DNA of 64,000 nt. Source: an uncultured Oscillospiraceae bacterium (GTDB taxonomy: Bacteria > Bacillota > Clostridia > Oscillospirales > Oscillospiraceae). Of the stretch, positions 7,257-63,600 are shown in pieces. A model generated the notes under the pieces. It saw nothing but the letters and a program-made list of their open reading frames with translations. It ran no database searches and had not been told where the DNA came from. Every line of letters begins with the position of its first letter. Position 1 is the first letter of the stretch. The stretch is taken from the NCBI GenBank assembly GCA_947589745.1, contig CANQCS010000005.1, positions 34,067 to 98,066 of the forward strand, written 5' to 3'. Made by a program: the position numbers and the translations under genes.

Positions 7257-7883
7257 ATGCCCACCAGCACATTTTTCAACCTGCCCGAGGAGAAGCGGCA
7301 GCGGCTCATGCGCTCCGCCATGGAGGAGTTCTCCAAGCGGCCCTACGGCGAGGTGCCCCTCAGCGGCATCATCCAGTCCGCCGGGATCCCCCGTGGCAGC
7401 TTTTACCAATATTTTGCCGACAAGACCGACCTGTTCCAGTACGTCCTGAGCCAGATCAGCCAGCGGATGCGGGGGCTCATCGGCGAGAGCCTGGACCGCT
7501 GCGGCGGGGACCTGCTGGACCTGCCGCTGGCCCTCTTCGACTGGGCGATGGAGTTCCTGCGGGAGGACGAGGAGGAGGCCCGGACCATCCTCTGCATCGT
7601 GCAGCACAACGCCGCCCTGGGCTCGGGGCAGATCTGGGACGTGGAGGCCACGGTGCGGCTGCTGCTGGAGCGGGTGGACCTGACGCCCCTTTGCCTGGAC
7701 GGCCGGGGCGAGGTCTGCGCCCTGCTGGATCTGCTGCTGTCCTCCGCCGGACAGGCGGTGGGCGCGGCCTGCTGCCATCCCGCCAAGGCGGAGCTCTGCC
7801 GCACCCACTTGCAGTATAAAATTGAAATTATCCGGGCCGGTGTGCTCAGCCGCCGGTCTGACAAGGAGGCATCCCCGTGCTGA
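7257..7883 (+). CDS. TetR/AcrR family transcriptional regulator
   Basis: This 208-aa protein has an N-terminal TetR HTH (SGIIQSAGIPRGSFYQYFAD, then KTDLFQYVLSQ) and a helical ligand-binding domain with little conservation. The ORF track begins 38 codons too early, in the promoter; the ATG at 7257 has GGGAGGG upstream. Its stop overlaps the GTG start of the ABC exporter by 7 bp, so it most likely controls that exporter in response to a toxic ligand. Confidence 0.9.
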   Translation: MPTSTFFNLPEEKRQRLMRSAMEEFSKRPYGEVPLSGIIQSAGIPRGSFYQYFADKTDLFQYVLSQISQRMRGLIGESLDRCGGDLLDLPLALFDWAMEFLREDEEEARTILCIVQHNAALGSGQIWDVEATVRLLLERVDLTPLCLDGRGEVCALLDLLLSSAGQAVGAACCHPAKAELCRTHLQYKIEIIRAGVLSRRSDKEASPC

Positions 7884-10800
7884 AATTACAGGACATTGTC
7901 AAGGTCTACGCCACCGCAGGCGAGACCGTCACCGCTCTCCGTGGCATTAATTTGGCATTCCGCGAGAGCGAATTTGTGGCCATCCTCGGCCACTCCGGCT
8001 GCGGCAAGACCACGCTGCTGAACATCATCGGCGGCCTGGACCAGTACACCAGCGGCGACCTCATCATCAACGGTCGCTCCACCAAGGAGTTCCGGGACAG
8101 CGACTGGGACACCTACCGGAACCACTCCATCGGCTTCGTGTTCCAGAGCTACAACCTGATCCCCCACCAGTCGGTGCTCTCCAACGTGGAGCTGGCCCTG
8201 ACCCTCTCCGGCGTGGGCAAGTCGGAGCGCCGCCGCCGGGCCAGAGAGGCCCTGGTGAAGGTGGGGCTGGGGGACCAGATGAAGAAGCGGCCCAACCAGC
8301 TCTCCGGCGGCCAGATGCAGCGGGTGGCCATCGCCCGGGCCCTGGTGAACGACCCGGACATTCTCCTGGCCGACGAGCCTACCGGCGCTCTGGACAGCGA
8401 GACCAGCGTCCAGGTCATGGACTTGCTGGCGGAGATCGCCAAGGATAAGCTGGTCATCATGGTGACCCACAACCCGGAGCTGGCGGAGAAATACGCCACC
8501 AGGACCATCCGCCTGCTGGACGGCCAGGTCACCGCCGACAGCGCCCCCTTCGACGGGGTCCAGGAGAGGCCCGCCGCCCTGGACGTGCGGCAGAAGAAGC
8601 CCTCCATGTCCTTCGCCACCGCCTTCTCCCTGTCCCTCAACAACCTGATGACCAAGAAGGGCCGCACCATCCTCACCAGCTTTGCCGGGTCCATCGGCAT
8701 CATCGGCATCGCGCTGATCCTGTCCCTCTCCGCCGGTATCAACTCCTACATCGAGGAGGTCCAGGAGGAGACGCTGTCCTCCTACCCCATCACCATCCAG
8801 GCGGAGACGGTGGATATGTCCTCCATGATGCTGTCCTTCATGGGGGCCCGGCAGGAGCGGGAGGAGAACGAGGTCCGTGAGGAGGACCGGGTCTATTCCG
8901 CCACCGTCATGTACGACATGCTCAACGCCATGGTCAACGCCGAGACCTCCAAGAACAATTTGAAGGCCTTCAAGTCGTATCTGGACGCGGGGGGCGGCGG
9001 GATCGCGGACCTGGCCAACATCCGCTACGGCTACAACCTCCGCTTTGATATCTACACCAACGACGAGGACGGCAACGTGGTCAAGAGCGATATCATGACC
9101 ATGATGCAGGAGGCCATGTCCTCCCTGTACGGCGGGGACTACTCCTCCTACTTCGGGTCCTCCATGGGCTCCATGTACACCGCCATGGACGTGTGGGAGG
9201 AGCTGATGCCCGGTGAGGACGGGCAGCTCATCTCCGACAGCGTGAAGGACCAGTATGAGCTGCTCTACGGCGCGTGGCCCCAGAACTACGACGAGGTGAT
9301 CCTCTTTGTGGACGGCCGCAACGAGGTGTCCGACCTGATGCTCTACGCCCTGGGCTACATCTCCTCCGACGCCATGACCGACACCCTGAAGGCCATCCAG
9401 AACGGGGAGACCGTGGACGTGGAGACCCGTAGCTGGAGCTACGAGGAGCTGTGCGAGAACAAGTTCAAGCTGATCCTCCCCGCCGAATACTTCCAGCACG
9501 ACCCGGTCACCGGCGGCTACGTGGACATGACCGAGACCGACAGCGGCATGGACTACCTCTACAACAGCGACGACGTGGGTGTGCCCCTGAAGATCGTGGG
9601 CATTGCCCGGCCCGGCGAGGATGCGAGCGGCAACGTCCGGGGCGCCATCGGCTACACCAGCGCCCTCACCACCTACGCCATCCAGGCCACGGCGGAGATG
9701 GATATTGTCAAGGAGCAGATGGACGACGAGACCACCGACGTCTTCCTGGCCCTGCCCTTCGCCACCGGCGACGAGGAGGAGCCCACCGATGAAGAGAAGG
9801 TGGAGGCCATCACCGAGTATCTGCAGGACCTCACCGCCCAGGAGAAGGCGGACGCCTATCTGGATGTGATGAGCCAGCCGTCCCAGGAGTATGTGGACGG
9901 CGTGGTGGAGCGCCAGATGGAGGGCATGACCCGGGAGTCCATCGAGGACATGATCATCCAGCAGTACGCCACCGAGATGGGCGTGGATGAGAGCACCATC
10001 ATGGGCTATATTCGGGACATGGACGACGATACCCTGTTCTCCCAGGTGGAGGAGGCCATCGCCTCCGGCGTCCGGGAGCAGTACGGACAGATGGTCAGCG
10101 CCCAGATGGGCGCCCTCACCGCGGACCAGCTGGCCGGGATGCTGGACGCCGCCCTGGAGGCCGGGCCCGTGGAGCCCTCTGAGAATGAGCCGGAGGAGGC
10201 AGAGACGCCCGATCCCTCCGCCGCGGGCATGGCTGGCATGACTGGCGCAGATATGTCCGGCATGGCCGGAATGACCGGCGCGGATATGAGCGGTATGGCC
10301 GGGATGACCGGCACGGATATGGCCGGGATGACTGGGGCCGGCATGGGCGGTATGACCGGGATGCCCGGGATGGGCATGGCCGCGGCCCAGCCCAGCGGCC
10401 TGGAGGACTGGCAGTTCGTGTACCTCTACGACAACTACATGCCCCCCACCCTCTCCGACGCCACCTATGACGAGAACATGGACCGGCTGGGGTATGTGGA
10501 CCTGGAGAGCCCCGACACCGTCAGCATCTACGCCGCCACCTTCGCGGACAAGGACGCCATCGCGGACCTCATCACCGAGTACAATGAGAACGTGGAGAAC
10601 GAGGACGACGAGATTGAGTACACCGACTATGTGGCCCTGCTGATGAGCTCCGTCACTGATATCATCAGCGGCATCAGCTACCTGCTGATCGCGTTCGTGT
10701 CCATCTCCCTGATTGTCTCCTCCATTATGATCGGCATTATCACCTATATCTCCGTGCTGGAGCGGACCAAGGAGATCGGTATTCTCCGGGCCGTGGGCGC

Positions 10801-11077
10801 GTCCAAGCGGGATATCAGCCGAGTGTTCAATGCGGAGACCTTCATCGTGGGCCTGGGGGCCGGTGTCATCGGCATCGCGGTGACGCTGATCCTGATCGTC
10901 CCCATCAACGCCATTCTGTTCCACTTCACCGGCATTGAGGGCCTCAAGGCCGCCCTGCCGGTCCAGGGGGCGGTGATCCTGGTGGTCATCAGCGCGCTGC
11001 TGACCATCATCGCGGGCCTGATCCCCTCCCGGGTGGCCGCCAAGAAGGACCCCGTGGTGGCGCTGCGCACCGAGTAA
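7877..11077 (+). CDS. MacB-like ABC exporter, ATPase fused to FtsX-type permease
   Basis: This 1066-aa protein begins at a GTG with AAGGAGG upstream. Residues 1-225 form an ABC ATPase with Walker A ([12 protein letters not shown]), signature ([12 protein letters not shown]) and Walker B ([12 protein letters not shown]). A first membrane helix follows at about 260-290, then about 650 extracytoplasmic residues, then three helices of the FtsX/MacB permease at about 930-1060. The ectodomain ends in a Met/Gly-rich repeat (units such as [11 protein letters not shown]) at about residues 784-834. MacB-type exporters move antimicrobials or peptides from the outer leaflet. It is much longer than usual for MacB (about 650 aa), because of the ectodomain. 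Confidence 0.9.
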
Positions 11078-11165: not shown

Positions 11166-12098
11166 CTATCTGCGGCAGACGAGCGTCCCCACGTCTGCGT
11201 CCACGGTGCAGACCGTGCCCAGGGGCAGGGTCACCATGGGGTCGCAGTAGTGGGCGGAGCGCACGTTCATCAGTACCGGCTTGGGATAGCCCCGAAAGAA
11301 CCATTCCACCAGCGCCTCCGGCCCCCACTCCGGCCTGCGCTCGTTGGGGCAGTCCGCGAAGGTCCCCAGCACCACCCCGGCGGCCTGGTCAAAAATCCCG
11401 GCATAGGCCAGCTGGGCCAGCATCCGCTCCAGGGCGTAGACCTCCTCCCCCACGTCCTCCAGGAAGAGAATTTTGCCCCGGGCGTCGATCTGCCAGGGGG
11501 TGCCCACTCCGGCGGCGATCAGGCTCAGGTTCCCGCCGGTGAGGATTCCCCGGGCTCTCCCAGGCCGCAGGCAGATCACAGACTCCCCCGGCGGGTTCTG
11601 GATAGGGAGGCAGTCCCCCATCTCCAGCGCCGCACGGAGGCTCCGCCAGGTGAAGTCCCCGGTGCCCTGGAGAAGGGTGGATGCCATGGGACCGTGGAAG
11701 GTGACGAAGCCGCAGCGCTGGCCGATGGCGGTGTGGAGGGTGGTCACGTCGCTGAAGCCGATGAAGGGCTTGGGGTGGGCGGCGATCAGATCCCAGTCCA
11801 AGTGGCCCAGAAGCCGCCAGGCGGTCTCGCCGCCACGGGTACACCAGACCGCCTTGATCTCCGGGTCCCCGAAGGCCCGGTGGATGTCCCGGACCCGGGC
11901 CTCCGTGGGGGCGGCGTAGCCGTCCGGATCCGCCCCATGGGTGGATTTGCCGGGCCACACCCGGTAGCCCGCCCGCTCCAGGGCGGCGGCAATGGCCTCC
12001 ACCGGCCGTTCCTCCGTCAGGGATGAGGACGGCGAAATCAGGGCGATAGTGTCCCCCGGCCGGGGGCAGGGCGGGAAGATCATATCAGGCATCTCCAT
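11166..12098 (-). CDS. ldcA: LD-carboxypeptidase (peptidase S66)
   Basis: This 310-aa protein matches S66 LD-carboxypeptidases. It has the N-terminal PRPGDTIALISPSS, the segment AVWCTRGGETAWRLL and the nucleophile motif IGFSDVTTLHTA (Ser in GFSD). A C-terminal region with PVLMNVRSAHYCDPMVTLPL should carry the catalytic His. Known members cut the L-Lys/D-Ala bond of muropeptides, or cleave microcin C-like peptides (MccF). It overlaps the M20 gene by 14 bp at the end of the ATP-grasp cluster, so here it may trim the product of that cluster rather than act in wall recycling. The exact start (12098 or 12092) is uncertain. Confidence 0.9.
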   Translation of the reverse strand: MEMPDMIFPPCPRPGDTIALISPSSSLTEERPVEAIAAALERAGYRVWPGKSTHGADPDGYAAPTEARVRDIHRAFGDPEIKAVWCTRGGETAWRLLGHLDWDLIAAHPKPFIGFSDVTTLHTAIGQRCGFVTFHGPMASTLLQGTGDFTWRSLRAALEMGDCLPIQNPPGESVICLRPGRARGILTGGNLSLIAAGVGTPWQIDARGKILFLEDVGEEVYALERMLAQLAYAGIFDQAAGVVLGTFADCPNERRPEWGPEALVEWFFRGYPKPVLMNVRSAHYCDPMVTLPLGTVCTVDADVGTLVCRR

Positions 12099-13269
12099 TC
12101 AGATAGTCCAGCACCGTCTGGACGTGGAGGGCCGCCGCCAGGGGCAGGGCCTCCGGGTCCACGGCGAAGTGGGGGTTGTGGTTGGGGCAGGTGAAGCCCT
12201 TGCTCTCATTCCCCACGCCCACGTAGTAGTAGCACCCCGGCGCGGCGTCGGAGAAGTAGCCGAAGTCGTCGGTGCCCAGGCTGGGCTCCGCCAGCTCCAG
12301 AACGTGCTCCGGGCCCAGTACCTTGGCCGCCGCCCGGCGGACCAGGTCCGTCATGGCCGGGTCGTTGCGGCAGCCGGGGTAGCTCTCGAAGATGGTGACC
12401 TCCGCCTCCACCCCCATCCCGGCGGCGATGCCGGTGACGATGGCACGGAAGTCGTCCTTCACCCGCTGCCGGGCCGGGCCGCCCATGGTGCGGAGGATGC
12501 CGGTGAACACCGCCTCCTCCGGCAGGACGTTCCCGGCGGTGCCGGCGTGGAAGCTGCCCACCGTCACCACCACCGGCTCGGTGGGGGAGGTGCGGCGGGA
12601 GGAGATGGTCTGGAGGGCGGTGATGATCTGGGCCCCGGCCACGATCACGTCGGCGCCCAGGTGGGGTTTGGCCCCGTGGGTGCCCCGGCCCTTGATGGTG
12701 ACAGAGAAGGGGTTGGACGCCGCGCAGATGGGGCCGGAGCGGACGGAGACGGTGCCCGTGGGGATGCCGCTCTCCACGTGGCAGCAGAGCATGGCGTCCA
12801 CGTGGGGATTTTCCATGCACCCGGCGGCGATCATCCGGGCCGCGCCGCCGTCGCCCTCCTCGTCGGGCTGGAAGAAGAGCTTCACATTGCCCCGCAGCTC
12901 CTCCCGGCGCGCCATCAGCAGCTCTGCCGCGCCCAGGAGGGCGGCGGTGTGGAAGTCGTGGCCGCAGGCGTGCATGACGCCGGGGACCTGGGAGGCGTAG
13001 GGCAGGCCCGTGTCCTCCAGGATGGGCAGGGCGTCGATATCCGCCCGGAAGCCGATGGTCTTTCCCGGCCGGCCGCCCCGGATCACGGCCACGGTGCCGG
13101 TGTCCAGCACCGGCGTGTACTCGACGCCCAGCCGGTCCAGGCGCTGCCGGATAAGGGCGGCGGTGTGGTGCTCCCGGTTGCCCAGCTCCGGGGTGCGGTG
13201 GATGGTCTGAAAAACGGTCTCCAGGTCCCCGGCAATGGCCCGGGCGCCGCAAAGAATCTGTTCCGTCAT
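12085..13269 (-). CDS. M20 family metallo-amidohydrolase
   Basis: This 394-aa protein belongs to the M20 aminoacylase/IAA-amino acid hydrolase group. Metal ligands lie in MHACGHDFHTAALLG, FFQPDEEGDGGAARMI and CCHVESGIPTGTV, with a further His in PNHNPHFAVD. These enzymes hydrolyse N-acyl or peptide amides. The start at 13269 follows AAAGGAG; the ORF track runs 24 codons further. It lies in the same minus-strand cluster as the amidoligase-like genes, separated by repeat A copy 3. Confidence 0.9.
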   Translation of the reverse strand: MTEQILCGARAIAGDLETVFQTIHRTPELGNREHHTAALIRQRLDRLGVEYTPVLDTGTVAVIRGGRPGKTIGFRADIDALPILEDTGLPYASQVPGVMHACGHDFHTAALLGAAELLMARREELRGNVKLFFQPDEEGDGGAARMIAAGCMENPHVDAMLCCHVESGIPTGTVSVRSGPICAASNPFSVTIKGRGTHGAKPHLGADVIVAGAQIITALQTISSRRTSPTEPVVVTVGSFHAGTAGNVLPEEAVFTGILRTMGGPARQRVKDDFRAIVTGIAAGMGVEAEVTIFESYPGCRNDPAMTDLVRRAAAKVLGPEHVLELAEPSLGTDDFGYFSDAAPGCYYYVGVGNESKGFTCPNHNPHFAVDPEALPLAAALHVQTVLDYLNGDA

Positions 13270-13348
13270 CGTGAACGGCTCCTTTTTGCATTGAGTTAGT
13301 GGTAAACATATACAGGAAAGATCGGTCACACTATTTTCCAATCAGAAC

Positions 13349-13445
13349 AAGGTATCGTTACCGTGCGAGAAATGTAGAGATTGCAACGCTTTGGTAGCGG
13401 TATTAAAGTTCTTTTTGATACTTTTTCTTTCAAGAAAAAGTATCA
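13349..13445 (-). repeat. Repeat family A, copy 3
   Basis: Minus orientation. The palindrome TGATACTTTTTCTTGAAAGA starts with the TGA of the AspA/AstE-like gene, and the tail runs to the TATCGTTACCGTG block. It splits the cluster between that gene and the M20 gene. Confidence 0.9.
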
Positions 13446-14375
13446 GTCCGGCAGGATGCGAAAAGCCGCCTCGTGGCCGTTGATGAGCTGGGCCCGGTGG
13501 GCGAAGAAAATTCTGCCGGAGCAGTCCGCCCGGAGCTGTTCCAGCACCGCGCCGGTGCAGGGCTCCAATATCTCCCCCAGCACGTCCCCCGGCCGGACCC
13601 GGTCCCCCGGGCGGCACTCCTGCTGGAGCAGCCCTCCCGCGGTGGTCAGGAGGCTGTGTAGGGCCTCCTCCCGGAGCAGCGACGGCTCCTCCTGGGGCGC
13701 GGGGACCGCCCGGCGGCTGAGGCCCTTGGCAAACAGGAACCGCTCCACCGCCTCCACCGCCTGCCGGGCGGCGGACTGGTCGATGCAGTCCGTGGCGCGG
13801 GTGTAGAGGGAGTAGGCCTGGGTATCCCAAATTTGCCAGTTGTAGTTGAGGGTCGTGGTATCGTAGGGGTGGGGCCGCCGGAGAATGACGTAGGGCAGGC
13901 CGAAGTCCAGGGCCTCCTCCGCCCGCTCGTAGCCCGTCTCCGTGATGCGCACGTGGGGCAGCAGGTCTCCTGGCAGGTGGAAGCTGGTGAACTGGACGCC
14001 GTAGCTGCAGCCCTGGAGGGCGGAAAAGATGTGGGCGGCGATGCGCTGGGTGGTCTCGCCCTGGTCGTAGCCCGGGAACATGCGGTTGATATCCGTGTTG
14101 TCCGCCGCCCAGAAACGGCGGCCCACGTTCATGGAGAACTGGTTGGCGCAGGGGACCACCAGGATGCCGCAGTCCTCCGCCAGCTCACCGTTCTCCTCCA
14201 TGGCCGCCAGGGCCCGGATAAGCTGGGAGCAGATATACATCTGCTGGACCTCGTTGCCCCGCAGCGCACCCAGCACCGCCAGGCTCCGCCGCTCCGGGTT
14301 CCCGAAGTACCAGCCCCGCACCGCCAGAGGGCGGCGGTAGGGGGTCTCCATGGTGAACAGAATCTCTTCTCTCAC
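13443..14375 (-). CDS. AspA/AstE-like (M14-fold) protein with altered zinc site
   Basis: This 310-aa protein is a paralogue of the next gene upstream. It keeps the fold pattern (AVLGALRGNEVQQMYICSQL, then NQFSMNVGRRFWAADNTDIN), but the first zinc ligand His of the usual H-G-D-E motif is Arg (LRGNE), and the second motif region reads VQFTSFHLPG. A C-terminal biotinyl-like domain (CRPGDRVRPGDVLGEILEP) is shared with the paralogue. It may be a non-catalytic partner or have a changed metal site. Its ATG overlaps the paralogue's stop by 4 bp. Confidence 0.8.
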   Translation of the reverse strand: MREEILFTMETPYRRPLAVRGWYFGNPERRSLAVLGALRGNEVQQMYICSQLIRALAAMEENGELAEDCGILVVPCANQFSMNVGRRFWAADNTDINRMFPGYDQGETTQRIAAHIFSALQGCSYGVQFTSFHLPGDLLPHVRITETGYERAEEALDFGLPYVILRRPHPYDTTTLNYNWQIWDTQAYSLYTRATDCIDQSAARQAVEAVERFLFAKGLSRRAVPAPQEEPSLLREEALHSLLTTAGGLLQQECRPGDRVRPGDVLGEILEPCTGAVLEQLRADCSGRIFFAHRAQLINGHEAAFRILPD

Positions 14376-15292
14376 AGCGCACCTCCCAGGATACGGGCGA
14401 TGAGGGAGCCCTCATACACCACAGGATATTCCCGCAGAGTGAACAGCAACCCGGAGGCCGGGCATATAAGCGTCTCGCACACGTCACCGGTGAGGGGGTC
14501 CACCACCTGCCCCAGCTCCTGCCCCTGCTCCACGTAGGCGGCATGGGCCACCGAGGGGACGAAGATGCCGGGCCGGGACGCGTTGACGAAGGACACGTGG
14601 CCGTCGCTGCTGACGATGGGCGGCGCCACCGGCATCACCGGCGCGTCCCACATCCCCAGGTAGTGCATGAGGGACAGGATGCCGGTCAGCAGCTGGTCGC
14701 CGTAGGCCCGGGTCAGGCGCATCCCCACGCCCATCTCCACCACCAGGGTGGGGGTGTCCAGGGCGTTGAGGCTGTGGGCCAGGGTGGACTCCAGCACCGT
14801 GGCGGCGGCGTGGATCCAGATGAAGCCCAGGTTCATCCGCTTGGCCAGGGGGACCAGCCGCTCGGCGGTGTTGACGTTGATGCGGACCTGGGGGATCTCC
14901 CGGAGGAAGATGTTGCTGGCGTGGATGTCGATGCACACGTCCGCTCCCACCATGTCCCGGATGAGGGTGTGGGCCAGAAACTCCGACATGGCCCCGTCCG
15001 GGCTGCCAGGGAAGGTGCGGTTCATGTCCAGGTCGCACAGGGGGTTGCTGCGGGTCATGGTGCTGACCCCCAGGGGGTTGAGGGCCGGGTAGATATCCAC
15101 CGTGCCCTTCAGGTGCTCCGGGTGGGCCTTCAGCCACCGGGCCAGCCGCCAGGCCACATACTGGCCCTCCAGCTCATCGCCGTGGGTACCGGTGACCACG
15201 CACAGCCGCTTGCCGCCGCTGCCGATCCGGTTCTTCTGGATCACCAGGTCCTCCCCCACGGCCAGGGGGACCCGTACCACTTGCTCGATCAT
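14372..15292 (-). CDS. Succinylglutamate desuccinylase/aspartoacylase family zinc hydrolase
   Basis: This 306-aa protein of the AstE/AspA branch of the M14 carboxypeptidase fold has the zinc motif VVTGTHGDELEGQYVAW and the second ligand in CIDIHASNIF. DLDMNRTFPG fits the substrate-binding segment. The C-terminal half ends in a barrel-sandwich-like domain (YVEQGQELGQVVDPLTG). The family releases acyl or aminoacyl groups from amino acids. In this cluster it probably trims or releases an amide-linked product. Confidence 0.88.
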   Translation of the reverse strand: MIEQVVRVPLAVGEDLVIQKNRIGSGGKRLCVVTGTHGDELEGQYVAWRLARWLKAHPEHLKGTVDIYPALNPLGVSTMTRSNPLCDLDMNRTFPGSPDGAMSEFLAHTLIRDMVGADVCIDIHASNIFLREIPQVRINVNTAERLVPLAKRMNLGFIWIHAAATVLESTLAHSLNALDTPTLVVEMGVGMRLTRAYGDQLLTGILSLMHYLGMWDAPVMPVAPPIVSSDGHVSFVNASRPGIFVPSVAHAAYVEQGQELGQVVDPLTGDVCETLICPASGLLFTLREYPVVYEGSLIARILGGAL

Positions 15293-15320
15293 GGTTGAAA
15301 GTTTTTCCTCGATTCCATCG

Positions 15321-16094
15321 TTATCGTGCCCGGACGGACACCGTCACGGTCTGCCGCTGTCCCGTCCTGCCCAGAAAGACGCCCCGCTCGATGGGGCAGT
15401 CCCCGAAGTCCCGGCCCACGGCCAGGCGGATCACGTCCTCGCCGGTCCAGCAGCCCCGGGTGGGGTCGATGCCGGTCCACACGCCGTCCAGCCACACCTC
15501 GCACCAGGCGTGGCTGGCCCCCTCCCCCTCGGGGAGGCCGCTGGCGTACCGGGCGGCGAGGCCCGCGCGCCGGGCCAGGGCCAGGAAGATGTGGGCGAAA
15601 TCCTGGCACACGCCGCTGCCGGAGGCGAAGGCCTGGGCGGCGGTGGTGGACACCCCGGTGGTGCCGGGGCGGTAGTTCATATGCGCATGGACCGCCTGGG
15701 CCAGGTCCCAGGCCCGCTCCGCCGGCGCCTCCGGCAGGGCGAGGCCCGCCAGAAAGTCCTCCATCTCCCCGCTCACCGCCGTGTAGGCGGAGGGGAAACG
15801 GTACACCGGGTGGCCCGGCGACTGCCGCCGCCGGGTCAGGTCCAGGCGGGCAGAGCCACGGACGGTGTAGCGGAACCGGTCGTGGGGCGCCTCGATGCGG
15901 CCGATCTGGAGCAGGTTGCCGAAGCCGTCCCGCTGCCGGGCGTAGGGCGCCTGGGGCTCCAGCGACAGGGACACGTCCAAAATCTCCTGCCCCGGGAAGG
16001 AGGGCGGCACGCACCGCAGGGCAAAGGCGTGGCCGGACACCGGCCCGTCGAAGGTCAGGAGCACGTCATAGAAGAAGGTCAGCTGCCGGCTCAT
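15321..16094 (-). CDS. Transglutaminase-like cysteine protease
   Basis: This 257-aa protein has an N-terminal beta domain (FFYDVLLTFDGPVSGHAF) and a transglutaminase core with Cys in SGSGVCQDFAHIFLALARR, His in GASHAWCEVWL and Asp in TGIDPTRGC. The ORF track start is about 100 codons too early; the ATG at 16094 overlaps the stop of the alpha-E gene (ATGA). This type regularly co-occurs with alpha-E and circularly permuted ATP-grasp proteins in bacterial clusters, where it is thought to cleave or cross-link the product. Confidence 0.92.
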   Translation of the reverse strand: MSRQLTFFYDVLLTFDGPVSGHAFALRCVPPSFPGQEILDVSLSLEPQAPYARQRDGFGNLLQIGRIEAPHDRFRYTVRGSARLDLTRRRQSPGHPVYRFPSAYTAVSGEMEDFLAGLALPEAPAERAWDLAQAVHAHMNYRPGTTGVSTTAAQAFASGSGVCQDFAHIFLALARRAGLAARYASGLPEGEGASHAWCEVWLDGVWTGIDPTRGCWTGEDVIRLAVGRDFGDCPIERGVFLGRTGQRQTVTVSVRAR

Positions 16095-16762
16095 ACCAGG
16101 AACAGTCCCTCCACAGCGCCCAGCAGGTCCCGGCGCTGGATGGCCTCGCCGCCCACGGCGCAGCGCTCCACCAGGTCCAGGGCCGCGGGATTGACGGTGA
16201 GCCCGGTCTTGTAGAGGCGGTTCAGCATCTTCTGCACCTCCCGCTCCAGCCGCTCGGTCTGCCAGTTCAGGCGGAGGATCAGGCTGATGCGCTCCACGCA
16301 GATGCCGGACTTGGTGACGTTCCGGGTGGCCTCGTCCTCTACGGAGTCGTCGAAGCTGCCCCGGAAGGCCATGATATCGTCCAGCACCCACTGGAGGGCC
16401 ACGGCGGGGCCGTCGCTGCGCTCGGCAATGTCCAGGGCGTACTGGGCCATCTGGAGGTAGGCCAGGGTGGGGGTGGTGATGGTCTCCCGCAGCACCATGC
16501 CGTTGCCCAGCATAGCGTCCAGGCTGGAGCGGACGGAGCTGGGGTCGCCGCCGTCAAAGAGGTAGCGGCGGCAGAAGTCCTCGTCGCTGGTGTAGGTGCA
16601 GGGGATGCCCATGTTCCGGCAGAACGCCTCCCGGCCGATATCCTCGCCGTCGATCAGGCGGTCGTACTGCTGGAGCATGTACTGGACCGTGGTGTACACC
16701 CGCTCGGCGTACCGCCCCAGCCAGAACAGGTGGTTCTGCTTGCTCAGTGTGACAATACCCAT
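16091..16762 (-). CDS. Alpha-E domain protein (DUF403)
   Basis: This 223-aa all-helical protein starts MGIVTLSKQNHLFWLGRYAE, the hallmark of alpha-E proteins. The ORF track's 533-aa reading is an upstream extension in a wrong frame. Alpha-E proteins have no known enzyme activity; they are nearly always encoded between a circularly permuted ATP-grasp and a transglutaminase-like protein, as here. The start overlaps the ATP-grasp gene by 19 bp and the stop overlaps the transglutaminase start by 4 bp, so three proteins are likely made in fixed ratio. Confidence 0.92.
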   Translation of the reverse strand: MGIVTLSKQNHLFWLGRYAERVYTTVQYMLQQYDRLIDGEDIGREAFCRNMGIPCTYTSDEDFCRRYLFDGGDPSSVRSSLDAMLGNGMVLRETITTPTLAYLQMAQYALDIAERSDGPAVALQWVLDDIMAFRGSFDDSVEDEATRNVTKSGICVERISLILRLNWQTERLEREVQKMLNRLYKTGLTVNPAALDLVERCAVGGEAIQRRDLLGAVEGLFLV

Positions 16763-18057
16763 GTGTCCTTGAAGCCTCCTCCCTGAGAAGAATTGACGAT
16801 AAAGCTGTCCGGGTTCCGGGAGAACCGGGTCAGGCCGCTGGGCCATACCACGGTGTCCTCCGCGCCGGAGAGGACAAACGCCCGCAGGTCCGCTTTCCGC
16901 TCCACCTGCCGCCCCTCGTCCATGATGGGCAGGTCCTGGAAGTCGATGACCTCCTGGGCGATGAACCGCCGGGGCTGGGCCAGGATGGTGGCCTTCAGGT
17001 CCTCCAGCTGCTGGCTCGTCAGCTTGCTGCCGAACACCACGCCGTAGCCGCCGGCCTCCGCCACGTCCTTCACTACCAGGGAGCCGATGTGCTCCAGCAC
17101 GTACTTCCGGTCCTCCTCGTAGAAAGGCAGGTAGGTGGGGGCGTTGGAGAGGATGGGCTCCTCCCCCAGGTAGTAGCGGATCATTTTGGGGACAAAGTAG
17201 TAGATGCCCTTGTCGTCGGCCACGCCGTTGCCGAAGGCGTTCATCACCGCCACGTTCCCCGCCCGGTAGGCGGCCATCAGGTTGGGGATGCCGATGAGGG
17301 ACGAGGGCTCGAAGGTCAGGGGGTCCATGTACTCGTCGGACACCCGGCGGTAGACGGCGCCCACCCGCTGGTCCCCGCCGGTGGAGCGGTAGTAGAGGGC
17401 GCTGTCCCGGACGTACAGGTCCCCGGCCTCCGCCAGCACCGAGCCAGACTGCTCCGCCAGATAGGAGTGCTCGAAGTAGGCCGCGTTGTACCGGCCGGGG
17501 GTGAAGACCACGTTGATGCCGCCGGTGTTCACACTGTCCATGGTATGCCGCAGGAGCTGTCCGTAATTCCGGTTGTCCACCACGCTGTTCTGCCGGAAGG
17601 TCTCCGGGGAGCACCGGCGGCACAGGCCCCGGGCGATGTAGGGGTAGGACGCGCCGGAGGGGATGCGCAGGTTGTCCTCCAGGATGTACCACACGCCGTC
17701 CTTGCCCTTCACCAGGTCGATGCCGGAGATGTGGCTGTATACGCCCTTCACCGGCGCGATGCCCTCACACTGGGGCAGATAGCCGGGGGAGCGGTAGACG
17801 AAGTCCTCCGGCACCACGCCCTCCGCGATGATGCGCTTCTCTCCGTACACGTCCCGCAGGAACAGGTTCAGGGCCCGCACCCGCTGGATCAGCCCCCGCT
17901 CCAGCGGGGCCCACTCCTGGGCAGTGATGATGCGGGGGATCGTGTCAAAGGGGAAGAGCCGCTCATGGAATTCGCCGTTCTTATAAATGCCGAACTTGAC
18001 GCCGTAGCGCGCCAGCTGCTGGTTGATCTGTCTCTCATGCTGGATCAATGCGTTCAT
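16744..18057 (-). CDS. Circularly permuted ATP-grasp amidoligase-like protein
   Basis: This 437-aa protein of the CP-ATP-grasp type 1 family (DUF404/DUF407) has N-terminal RLFPFDTIPRIITAQEWAPL, then VYSHISGIDLVKGKDGVWYI, LEDNLRIPSGASYPY and the late ATP-grasp elements SLVVKDVAEAGGYGVVFG and RADLRAF-like KADLRAFVLSG. Comparative genomics links the family to ATP-dependent amide bond formation on small molecules or peptides, but no substrate is established. The ATG at 18057 follows GGGAGG. It heads the cluster and is preceded by a promoter and a terminator-like leader hairpin. Confidence 0.93.
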   Translation of the reverse strand: MNALIQHERQINQQLARYGVKFGIYKNGEFHERLFPFDTIPRIITAQEWAPLERGLIQRVRALNLFLRDVYGEKRIIAEGVVPEDFVYRSPGYLPQCEGIAPVKGVYSHISGIDLVKGKDGVWYILEDNLRIPSGASYPYIARGLCRRCSPETFRQNSVVDNRNYGQLLRHTMDSVNTGGINVVFTPGRYNAAYFEHSYLAEQSGSVLAEAGDLYVRDSALYYRSTGGDQRVGAVYRRVSDEYMDPLTFEPSSLIGIPNLMAAYRAGNVAVMNAFGNGVADDKGIYYFVPKMIRYYLGEEPILSNAPTYLPFYEEDRKYVLEHIGSLVVKDVAEAGGYGVVFGSKLTSQQLEDLKATILAQPRRFIAQEVIDFQDLPIMDEGRQVERKADLRAFVLSGAEDTVVWPSGLTRFSRNPDSFIVNSSQGGGFKDTWVLSH

Positions 18058-18076: not shown

Positions 18077-18126
18077 AAAAAAGCATGGCAACAGCACCTT
18101 TTCCGGCGCCGTTGCCCCGCTTTTTG
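18077..18126 (-). terminator. Leader hairpin with terminator form before the ATP-grasp cluster
   Basis: On the minus strand GGCAACGGCGCC pairs over 12 bp (with G-U) with GGTGCTGTTGCC, flanked by AAAAAGC and GCTTTTTT. It fills almost the whole 5' leader between the predicted transcription start (about 18128) and the ribosome binding site, so it is either an attenuator or a 5' stabilising stem. Confidence 0.75.
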
Positions 18127-18134
18127 ATAAAATT

Positions 18135-18163
18135 ATTATAAGCTTGCCCGGGAAACGCGTCAA
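18135..18163 (-). promoter_or_regulatory. Promoter of the ATP-grasp cluster
   Basis: TTGACG, a 17-bp spacer and TATAAT on the minus strand, about 77 bp upstream of the ATP-grasp start codon. Confidence 0.85.
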
Positions 18164-56599: not shown

Positions 56600-56729
56600 G
56601 ATTTTATACTATTCTCCCATTAGAAGTATATTTCGTTACCGTGTCGAGAATGTAGGTTTTGCAACGCTTTGAGAGCGATGTTAAAGTTCTTTTTGATACT
56701 TTTTCTTTCAAGAAAAAGTATTAGACATG
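56600..56729 (-). repeat. Repeat family A, copy 7 (near full length)
   Basis: Minus orientation. The distal end is TATACTATTCTCCCATTAGA, the middle TTCGTTACCGTG and TTGCAACGCTTTGAGAGCGA, and the gene-proximal palindrome ATACTTTTTCTTGAAAGAAA. The sequence next to the palindrome gives a TAA for the small peptide frame upstream. Confidence 0.9.
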
Positions 56730-56804: not shown

Positions 56805-56829
56805 CGTTGTATCAGCACCTATCGTTCAG
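56790..56829 (-). promoter_or_regulatory. Stem-loop in the small transcript
   Basis: GATAGGTGC pairs over 9 bp (one G-U) with GCGCCTATC. A run of T (CCTTTTTTG) follows about 15 nt later, but without its own clear stem. Confidence 0.4.
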
Positions 56830-56909
56830 ACTTTACCACTACTCCATACGGAAAGTTGGTGGACGGTCATCGGGTCTGTCCCTCGCGCCGCTCTTTATAG
56901 GTTGAATAC

Positions 56910-63239: not shown

Positions 63240-63330
63240 GGAACACGGCAACCGGCTGTCATGGTCATGATGACTTTAGACCCTTGGTTTTGCGTCCCTG
63301 TCTTTCAACAGGTTTGCCCTTGTCAGTTCT
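63240..63330 (-). ncRNA. c-di-GMP-I (GEMM-I) riboswitch aptamer
   Basis: On the minus strand the conserved GEMM-I core is present in order: AGGGCAAACC, a GAAA tetraloop stem (TGTTGAAAGACA), GGGACGCAAAACC, GGTCTAAA, a P3 stem (GTCAT with ATGAC) and the closing CCGGTTGCCG. It lies 15-100 nt downstream of the promoter and is followed by a terminator. It should make adhesin expression depend on cyclic di-GMP. Confidence 0.92.
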
Positions 63331-63474: not shown

Positions 63475-63600
63475 TATTCTTATACTATTCTCCCATTAGA
63501 AGCATACTTCGTTACCGTGCTGGAAATGTAGGTATTGCAACGCTTTGGAAGCGATGCTAAAGTTCTTTTTGATACTTTTTCTTTCAAGAAAAAGTATTAC
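63475..63600 (-). repeat. Repeat family A, copy 8 (near full length)
   Basis: Minus orientation, closely similar to copy 7 over its whole length (TATACTATTCTCCCATTAGA to ATACTTTTTCTTGAAAGAAA). No convincing gene ends at its palindrome; a stop TAA is present in the same place as in copy 7. Confidence 0.9.

Follow-up and report, generated by a model that had tools for sequence, protein, structure and literature searches.

A five-gene amidoligase cassette of Oscillospiraceae and relatives, with a candidate ANTAR-type leader that may tie it to nitrogen supply

Introduction

What does a bacterium gain from linking a CP-ATP-grasp ligase, an alpha-E protein and a transglutaminase-like (TG-like) enzyme to a row of hydrolases, and which of these genes belong together? 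The question is raised by seven minus-strand genes at positions 11166-18057 of a 64,000-nucleotide stretch of DNA from an uncultured Oscillospiraceae bacterium (assembly GCA_947589745.1, contig CANQCS010000005.1), the whole of which is referred to as the window. The first three genes correspond to a triad that has been known for more than 15 years, and we know of no substrate or phenotype for it. A sequence-only reading of the window had proposed that all seven genes form a complete pathway for synthesis and trimming of a product, perhaps gamma-glutamyl or muropeptide-like. After comparison with related loci, five genes are left of this proposal, to which an RNA leader is added; the leader resembles the targets of ANTAR regulators and points to a link with nitrogen supply.

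The Anbu operon is composed of ATP-grasp, alpha-E, transglutaminase and Anbu genes (Iyer 2009, as cited in PMC5666114 and PMC6376114). The CP-ATP-grasp, alpha-E and TG-like genes of the window adjoin in this same order, and their identification with the published amidoligase triad by the sequence-only reading was correct (PMC5666114, PMC6376114). The two systems differ in what follows, Anbu being the fourth gene there and a pair of AspA/AstE-like genes, here called AspA1 and AspA2, taking its place in the window. The proteobacterial version is linked to nitrogen in its expression: in Burkholderia cenocepacia the triad depends on NtrC (PMC5491218), and Anbu is induced by nitrogen limitation (PMC5666114, PMC6376114). 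In the literature searched, with Iyer 2009 itself outside that search, no mention was found of AspA/AstE neighbours of the triad.

Results

The conserved unit comprises five of the seven genes

All seven genes were found on the minus strand with the families named beforehand, the last two being Peptidase_M20 and Peptidase_S66 by Pfam. The tight order with overlaps at most junctions, also described in the sequence-only reading, holds for four of the six junctions, ATP-grasp/alpha-E (19 bp, window 16744-16762), alpha-E/TG (4 bp), AspA1/AspA2 (4 bp) and M20/S66 (14 bp), while the other two are gaps, of 28 bp between TG and AspA1 and of 173 bp between AspA2 and M20, the latter making a clear break before the M20 gene.

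For comparison, 15 loci of the family taken from whole genomes were combined with the best 80 of 589 candidates from a genome collection, a choice by which the sample leans to the closest relatives, and all loci were annotated by search with the seven window proteins. The exact order ATP-grasp, alpha-E, TG, AspA1, AspA2 was found in 73 loci, and of the 90 loci whose ATP-grasp gene is a close relative, 77 have the AspA pair, split and rearranged cases included. These 90 loci are distributed over Bacillota, Actinomycetota and Spirochaetota, and the hosts of the cassette include Oscillospiraceae, Lachnospiraceae, Selenomonadaceae, Acidaminococcaceae, Actinomycetota and Treponema. No homologue of M20 or S66 was detected in 1.46 Mb of neighbourhood DNA from the relatives by a search that recovered the window's own copies as positive control. 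Whether relatives keep the four additional hydrolases with the triad had been set beforehand as the refutation test of the sequence-only reading; the AspA pair is kept, and M20 and S66 are near none of the loci. To judge by this conservation, the order of the five genes is not due to chance, and the unit is a five-gene cassette of gut bacteria, with CP-ATP-grasp, short alpha-E, TG-like, AspA1 and pseudo-AspA2 genes. Since M20 and S66 have no homologue near the cassettes of relatives and lie behind the 173-bp gap, they are on the same comparison chance neighbours. Clustering of flanking open reading frames of at least 60 aa gave no further conserved neighbour, such as a transporter, a peptide precursor or a tag gene.

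The association was also seen at the level of genomes. In a sample of 151 Oscillospiraceae genomes, this ATP-grasp type was present in 13, of which 12 also carry AspA2, and AspA2 was found in none of the other 138 except for one weak match of general AstE type (Fisher p=7e-17, uncorrected for relatedness). In a sample of the phylum, a strong AspA2 match was obtained for all three genomes with the ATP-grasp type and for none of 297 others. In two triad-only cases AspA2 is located elsewhere in the genome, about 25 kb off in one and on another contig in the other. The triad can nevertheless stand alone, as it does without AspA2 in five whole genomes.

In the protein tree, families are intermingled, suggesting horizontal transfer, although rooting is unsafe because of long outgroup branches. 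The overlap of ATP-grasp and alpha-E genes is exactly 19 bp in most loci, in three phyla, and this constancy suggests translational coupling. In Oscillibacter valericigenes An890 (locus L034, 8731-11912) the cassette has apparently decayed, with an in-frame stop splitting ATP-grasp and the TG gene not found, and in another locus (L033, 6681-7558; G125:C128) a remnant is left, in which an ATP-grasp fragment abuts a C-terminal fragment of AspA2 as if by internal deletion. Three distant sister clusters (L030, L031 and L032) carry ATP-grasp and TG genes, with neither alpha-E nor a hexaloop leader detected; they are followed by a PuuD-like gene (Peptidase_C26, gamma-glutamyl hydrolase-like; checked by Pfam in L030).

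Proteins of the triad

The match of the ATP-grasp ligase to PDB entry 3n6x spans the full length. This homologue, deposited as a putative glutathionylspermidine synthase, has a solved structure and a name that is itself putative, and we know of no activity for it. The most likely start codon of the ligase is the ATG at 18057. The alpha-E protein is 220-239 aa long in almost all cassette loci (about 223 aa in the window), in contrast to 310-355 aa in plasmid-borne proteobacterial triads. Its predicted structure is all-helical with a pLDDT (predicted local distance difference test) of 94, and a structure search of the PDB gave no significant fold match. In the TG-like enzyme, the Cys, His and Asp listed in Table 1 are conserved across loci.

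Table 1. Positions of cassette genes, leader elements and the adjoining palindrome in the window
Feature	Position	Strand	Basis
CP-ATP-grasp ligase, 437 aa	16744-18057	-	Pfam PF14403 CP_ATPgrasp_2 E=1e-142; PDB 3n6x E=1e-137
alpha-E helical protein, short form, 223 aa	16091-16762	-	PF04168 E=1e-17, positions 7-164 of 294 only
Transglutaminase-like (TG) Cys hydrolase/transferase	15321-16094	-	PF01841 Transglut_core E=2e-19; PF08379; C163, H195, D210
AspA1, AspA/AstE-like Zn deacylase (predicted)	14372-15292	-	PF24827 AstE_AspA_cat E=2e-21; H37, E40, H124, E186
AspA2, AspA/AstE pseudoenzyme	13443-14375	-	AstE_AspA_cat E=9e-11; R39 at Zn His
Sigma-70-type promoter, TTGACG-17-TATAAT	18135-18163	-	11/12 consensus matches
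Intrinsic terminator with U-tract, between promoter and ATP-grasp start	18077-18124	-	fold z-score -5.7
Hexaloop hairpin GGC[AACGGC]GCC, candidate ANTAR target	18105-18116	-	inside terminator 5' arm; A1, G4
24-bp dispersed palindrome	13419-13442	.	in 173-bp gap after AspA2; marks break before M20

A predicted deacylase and a conserved pseudoenzyme

The distinction between an active and an altered AspA/AstE-like protein, already drawn from the window, holds across the relatives when residues are compared. In AspA1, the HxxE...H metal site and the catalytic Glu are kept in essentially every locus, indicating that AspA1 is an intact-site Zn deacylase of the AspA/AstE kind in its predicted activity. 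Its relatives in the PDB include 2qj8, 3cdx, DoeB (6twl/6twm) and CphZ (8ein/8eip), which are the nearest solved proteins for the AspA pair, and the Zn site and catalytic Glu are the same as those of CphZ, DoeB and other AspA/AstE deacylases. In AspA2, the first Zn His is replaced by Arg in 79 of 80 cases, and the second metal His (the third ligand) and the catalytic Glu are lost. The structure model of AspA2 nevertheless matches CphZ (8eip) and 3cdx in fold, sharing about 15-20% identity with these deacylases and lacking the site. Since the active-site residues are gone and yet AspA2 has strongly conserved motifs of its own, for instance DNTDINRMFPGY and DTTTLNYNWQ, AspA2 is by its residue pattern a retained, conserved pseudoenzyme. 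The 4-bp overlap of the two genes, found in most loci, together with their co-occurrence, leads us to infer that AspA2 is a partner of AspA1. What sets the cassette apart from CphZ/DoeB-type deacylases is the pairing of AspA1 with a conserved pseudoenzyme and the tie of both to the CP-ATP-grasp triad; AspA2 is a conserved deacylase pseudoenzyme and a candidate subunit.

The four amide-bond hydrolases of the sequence-only reading accordingly shrink to one Zn deacylase, AspA1, and the Cys TG-like enzyme of the triad itself, because M20 and S66 fall out and only one AspA protein keeps its catalytic residues. The suggestion of a muropeptide-like product depended on S66 and is no longer supported, as S66 is not part of the unit.

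The leader RNA has the anatomy of an ANTAR target

Upstream of 18057, outside the coordinates covered by the sequence-only reading and missed there, lie a strong promoter and, behind it, a leader RNA with terminator and hexaloop hairpin (Table 1). Most relatives have a similar promoter immediately ahead of the leader. Under strict detection, 26 of 95 leaders have a terminator-like hairpin, as compared with 0.5% of shuffles; by folding under a looser criterion, which had no control of its own, a hairpin beside a T-rich stretch was found in 85 of 95. In an alignment of 26 leaders, 12 of the 14 pairs of the terminator stem show compensatory change. The three-pair hexaloop stem, which is an alternative to it, is 100% paired with 12 two-sided changes in the same alignment, as compared with 28-54% when the stem is slid. 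The hexaloop C[ANNGNN]G is present in 70 of 110 leader hairpins, against 82 of 3625 hairpin-plus-T sites elsewhere in these loci. Loop positions 1 and 4 and the C-G pair that closes the loop hardly change between leaders, in contrast to the variable positions around them. Most leaders have one hexaloop; two are present in eight loci, where each hexaloop hairpin has its own terminator-like hairpin.

An ANTAR regulator acts by holding the hexaloop so that the terminator is prevented (PMC3369931, PMC8934654), and the minimum target has been redefined as one hexaloop (PMC8934654). With its A1/G4 hexaloop overlapping an intrinsic terminator, the cassette leader is, as a candidate site, of ANTAR-target anatomy. 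The regulons of EutV and NasR likewise show an A1/G4 hexaloop whose short stem coincides in part with an intrinsic terminator, with nitrogen genes downstream (PMC3369931, PMC8934654), but they have two hexaloops, whereas the cassette leader mostly has one, starting not more than about 20 bases from the promoter. ANTAR sites with a single hexaloop have been predicted from the structure of EutV, and the cassette leaders are candidates for such sites in nature. No report of an amidoligase cassette as an ANTAR target was found in the literature searched, and an Rfam search of the leader gave no credible family. As another possible reader of the leader, LoaP antitermination was considered and rejected: NF033641 gave no match above cut-off in the 151 genomes, and NusG-like hits were sub-threshold and mostly one per genome.

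The same element precedes nitrogen genes of relatives

A covariance model (R1) was made from the cassette leaders only and run on eight cassette genomes; its E-values are rough. Apart from the cassette leaders themselves, matches were obtained ahead of ammonium transporter (amt) genes (two genomes, E=2.8e-5 in both), type III glutamine synthetase (GSIII) genes (three genomes, E=0.011, 0.012 and 0.044) and a carbon-nitrogen hydrolase gene (E=0.0013), and the downstream proteins were confirmed by Pfam. One of the GSIII sites has a type I glnA as its neighbour and an ANTAR gene close by, and another lies beside an ANTAR gene. A hexaloop-bearing match was also found ahead of a kinase-like gene (L141), while matches without a hexaloop (G026:C189 and G095:C106) look like ordinary terminators. 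In Treponema HAN028 (L113) the genes are ordered glnA, ANTAR response regulator, ATP-grasp, alpha-E and TG. The triad is thus tied to nitrogen supply by what appears to be the same RNA switch on the ammonium-uptake and glutamine-making genes of relatives. ATP-grasp genes tabulated in nitrogen-regulator studies of other bacteria were also considered, and could not be identified as the cassette ligase.

Discussion

The interpretation to which we incline, by a small degree, is that the triad and the AspA/pseudo-AspA pair, placed under a nitrogen-responsive ANTAR-type leader, carry out amide synthesis and then cleavage for scavenging or recycling of nitrogen. From its family membership, the ATP-grasp enzyme would join an amine to a carboxylate at the expense of ATP, with alpha-E as its probable partner; the amide bonds of the product would be cut by the Cys TG-like enzyme and the Zn enzyme AspA1, with AspA2 as non-catalytic subunit of the latter. 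Where the host has such a regulator, an ANTAR protein that responds to nitrogen would permit polymerase to read through at nitrogen shortage, and read-through of the cassette would be coordinated with the ammonium transporter and GSIII genes. Since this read-through would be shared with the amt and GSIII genes, the most likely role would be to scavenge or recycle nitrogen that is present as amines, amides or isopeptides. For the wider proposal, that single-hexaloop ANTAR leaders define a nitrogen regulon of gut Oscillospiraceae and relatives with the cassette as one target, and that the triad serves nitrogen scavenging under regulators that are unrelated in different phyla, ANTAR here and NtrC in proteobacteria, the chances appear evenly balanced. 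Such an ANTAR-type link agrees with the independent nitrogen control of the proteobacterial triad, and a leader element common to ammonium uptake and glutamine synthesis provides a testable clue to the use of the triad in gut Firmicutes.

Several observations weigh against nitrogen scavenging under ANTAR control. An ATP-consuming ligase is unusual for a scavenging pathway, and to our knowledge no enzyme activity or substrate has been described for any member of the cassette. Eight loci with ample downstream sequence hold the triad or part of it with no adjacent AspA pair, and the locus counts are not independent because the loci are homologous. Most cassette leaders have a single hexaloop, whereas classical ANTAR targets hold two, and cassette genomes show no clear enrichment of ANTAR (9/13, against 90/151 overall in the family). 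In the genome of the window itself, an ANTAR protein was found neither with Pfam nor with a profile of nearby regulators, the cassette leader was the only good R1 match, and an ammonium transporter was detected neither there nor in two congeners. The switch of the window species may therefore now be an orphan, and an assembly gap could also explain the missing ANTAR protein. Two sampled genus mates lack the ATP-grasp gene, which together with the intermingled tree suggests that cassette and switch were acquired together by horizontal transfer.

That the leader hairpin is a mere conserved terminator or DNA operator, unconnected with ANTAR proteins, would fit the lack of ANTAR in the window genome, and its arms, being palindromic, might act as a site in DNA. 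This is nevertheless improbable, since the near-fixed loop positions 1 and 4 and closing C-G stand among variable neighbours, arm spacing differs among loci with a U-tract next, and the same element lies ahead of nitrogen genes of relatives, once beside an ANTAR gene. A nitrogen-regulated leader would also suit a storage function, in which the ligase makes a dipeptide or polymer and the TG-like enzyme and AspA1 release it, as do cyanophycin synthetase, cyanophycinase and CphZ. CphZ (8ein/8eip) is indeed among the matches of both the AspA1 profile and the AspA2 model, and the isoaspartyl dipeptidases of Firmicutes are said to be still undiscovered (PMC10206079). Storage compounds are, however, normally synthesized at nitrogen excess, whereas shortage is implied if the cassette is regulated together with amt and GSIII, AspA1 resembles CphZ no more closely than DoeB or 3cdx, and the ATP-grasp protein is assigned to CP_ATPgrasp families only, so that we regard storage as unlikely.

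Protein tagging, as proposed for the Anbu operon, draws on the same triad, which would add a peptide tag for the hydrolases to remove, and the Yersinia ATP-grasp protein does release phosphate from ATP (PMC6376114). We give it a similarly low probability, because the window genome has neither Anbu nor any other proteasome-fold gene (no PF00227 match), the substrates of known AspA/AstE enzymes are small N-acyl amino acids, and no conserved tag gene was found among the flanking reading frames of at least 60 aa. A seven-gene pathway to a gamma-glutamyl or muropeptide-like product, for which the contiguity of the genes in the window genome speaks, is hardly credible, with M20 and S66 absent from the neighbourhoods of all relatives and set apart here by a gap that contains a dispersed palindrome.

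Other features of the window

The palindrome in that gap, TACTTTTTCTTGAAAGAAAAAGTA, occurs in the window as three exact copies, where none is expected by chance, and two near copies, the five positions being 118-141, 1369-1392, 13419-13442, 56697-56720 and 63573-63596. The neighbour of the S66 gene is a large ABC transporter on the plus strand (7877-11077), with the ATPase fused to the permease and a repeated stretch of 11 protein letters. Two riboswitches were detected on the minus strand with Rfam, c-di-GMP-I at 63244-63328 (E=2e-14) and SAM at 56816-56903 (E=1e-7).

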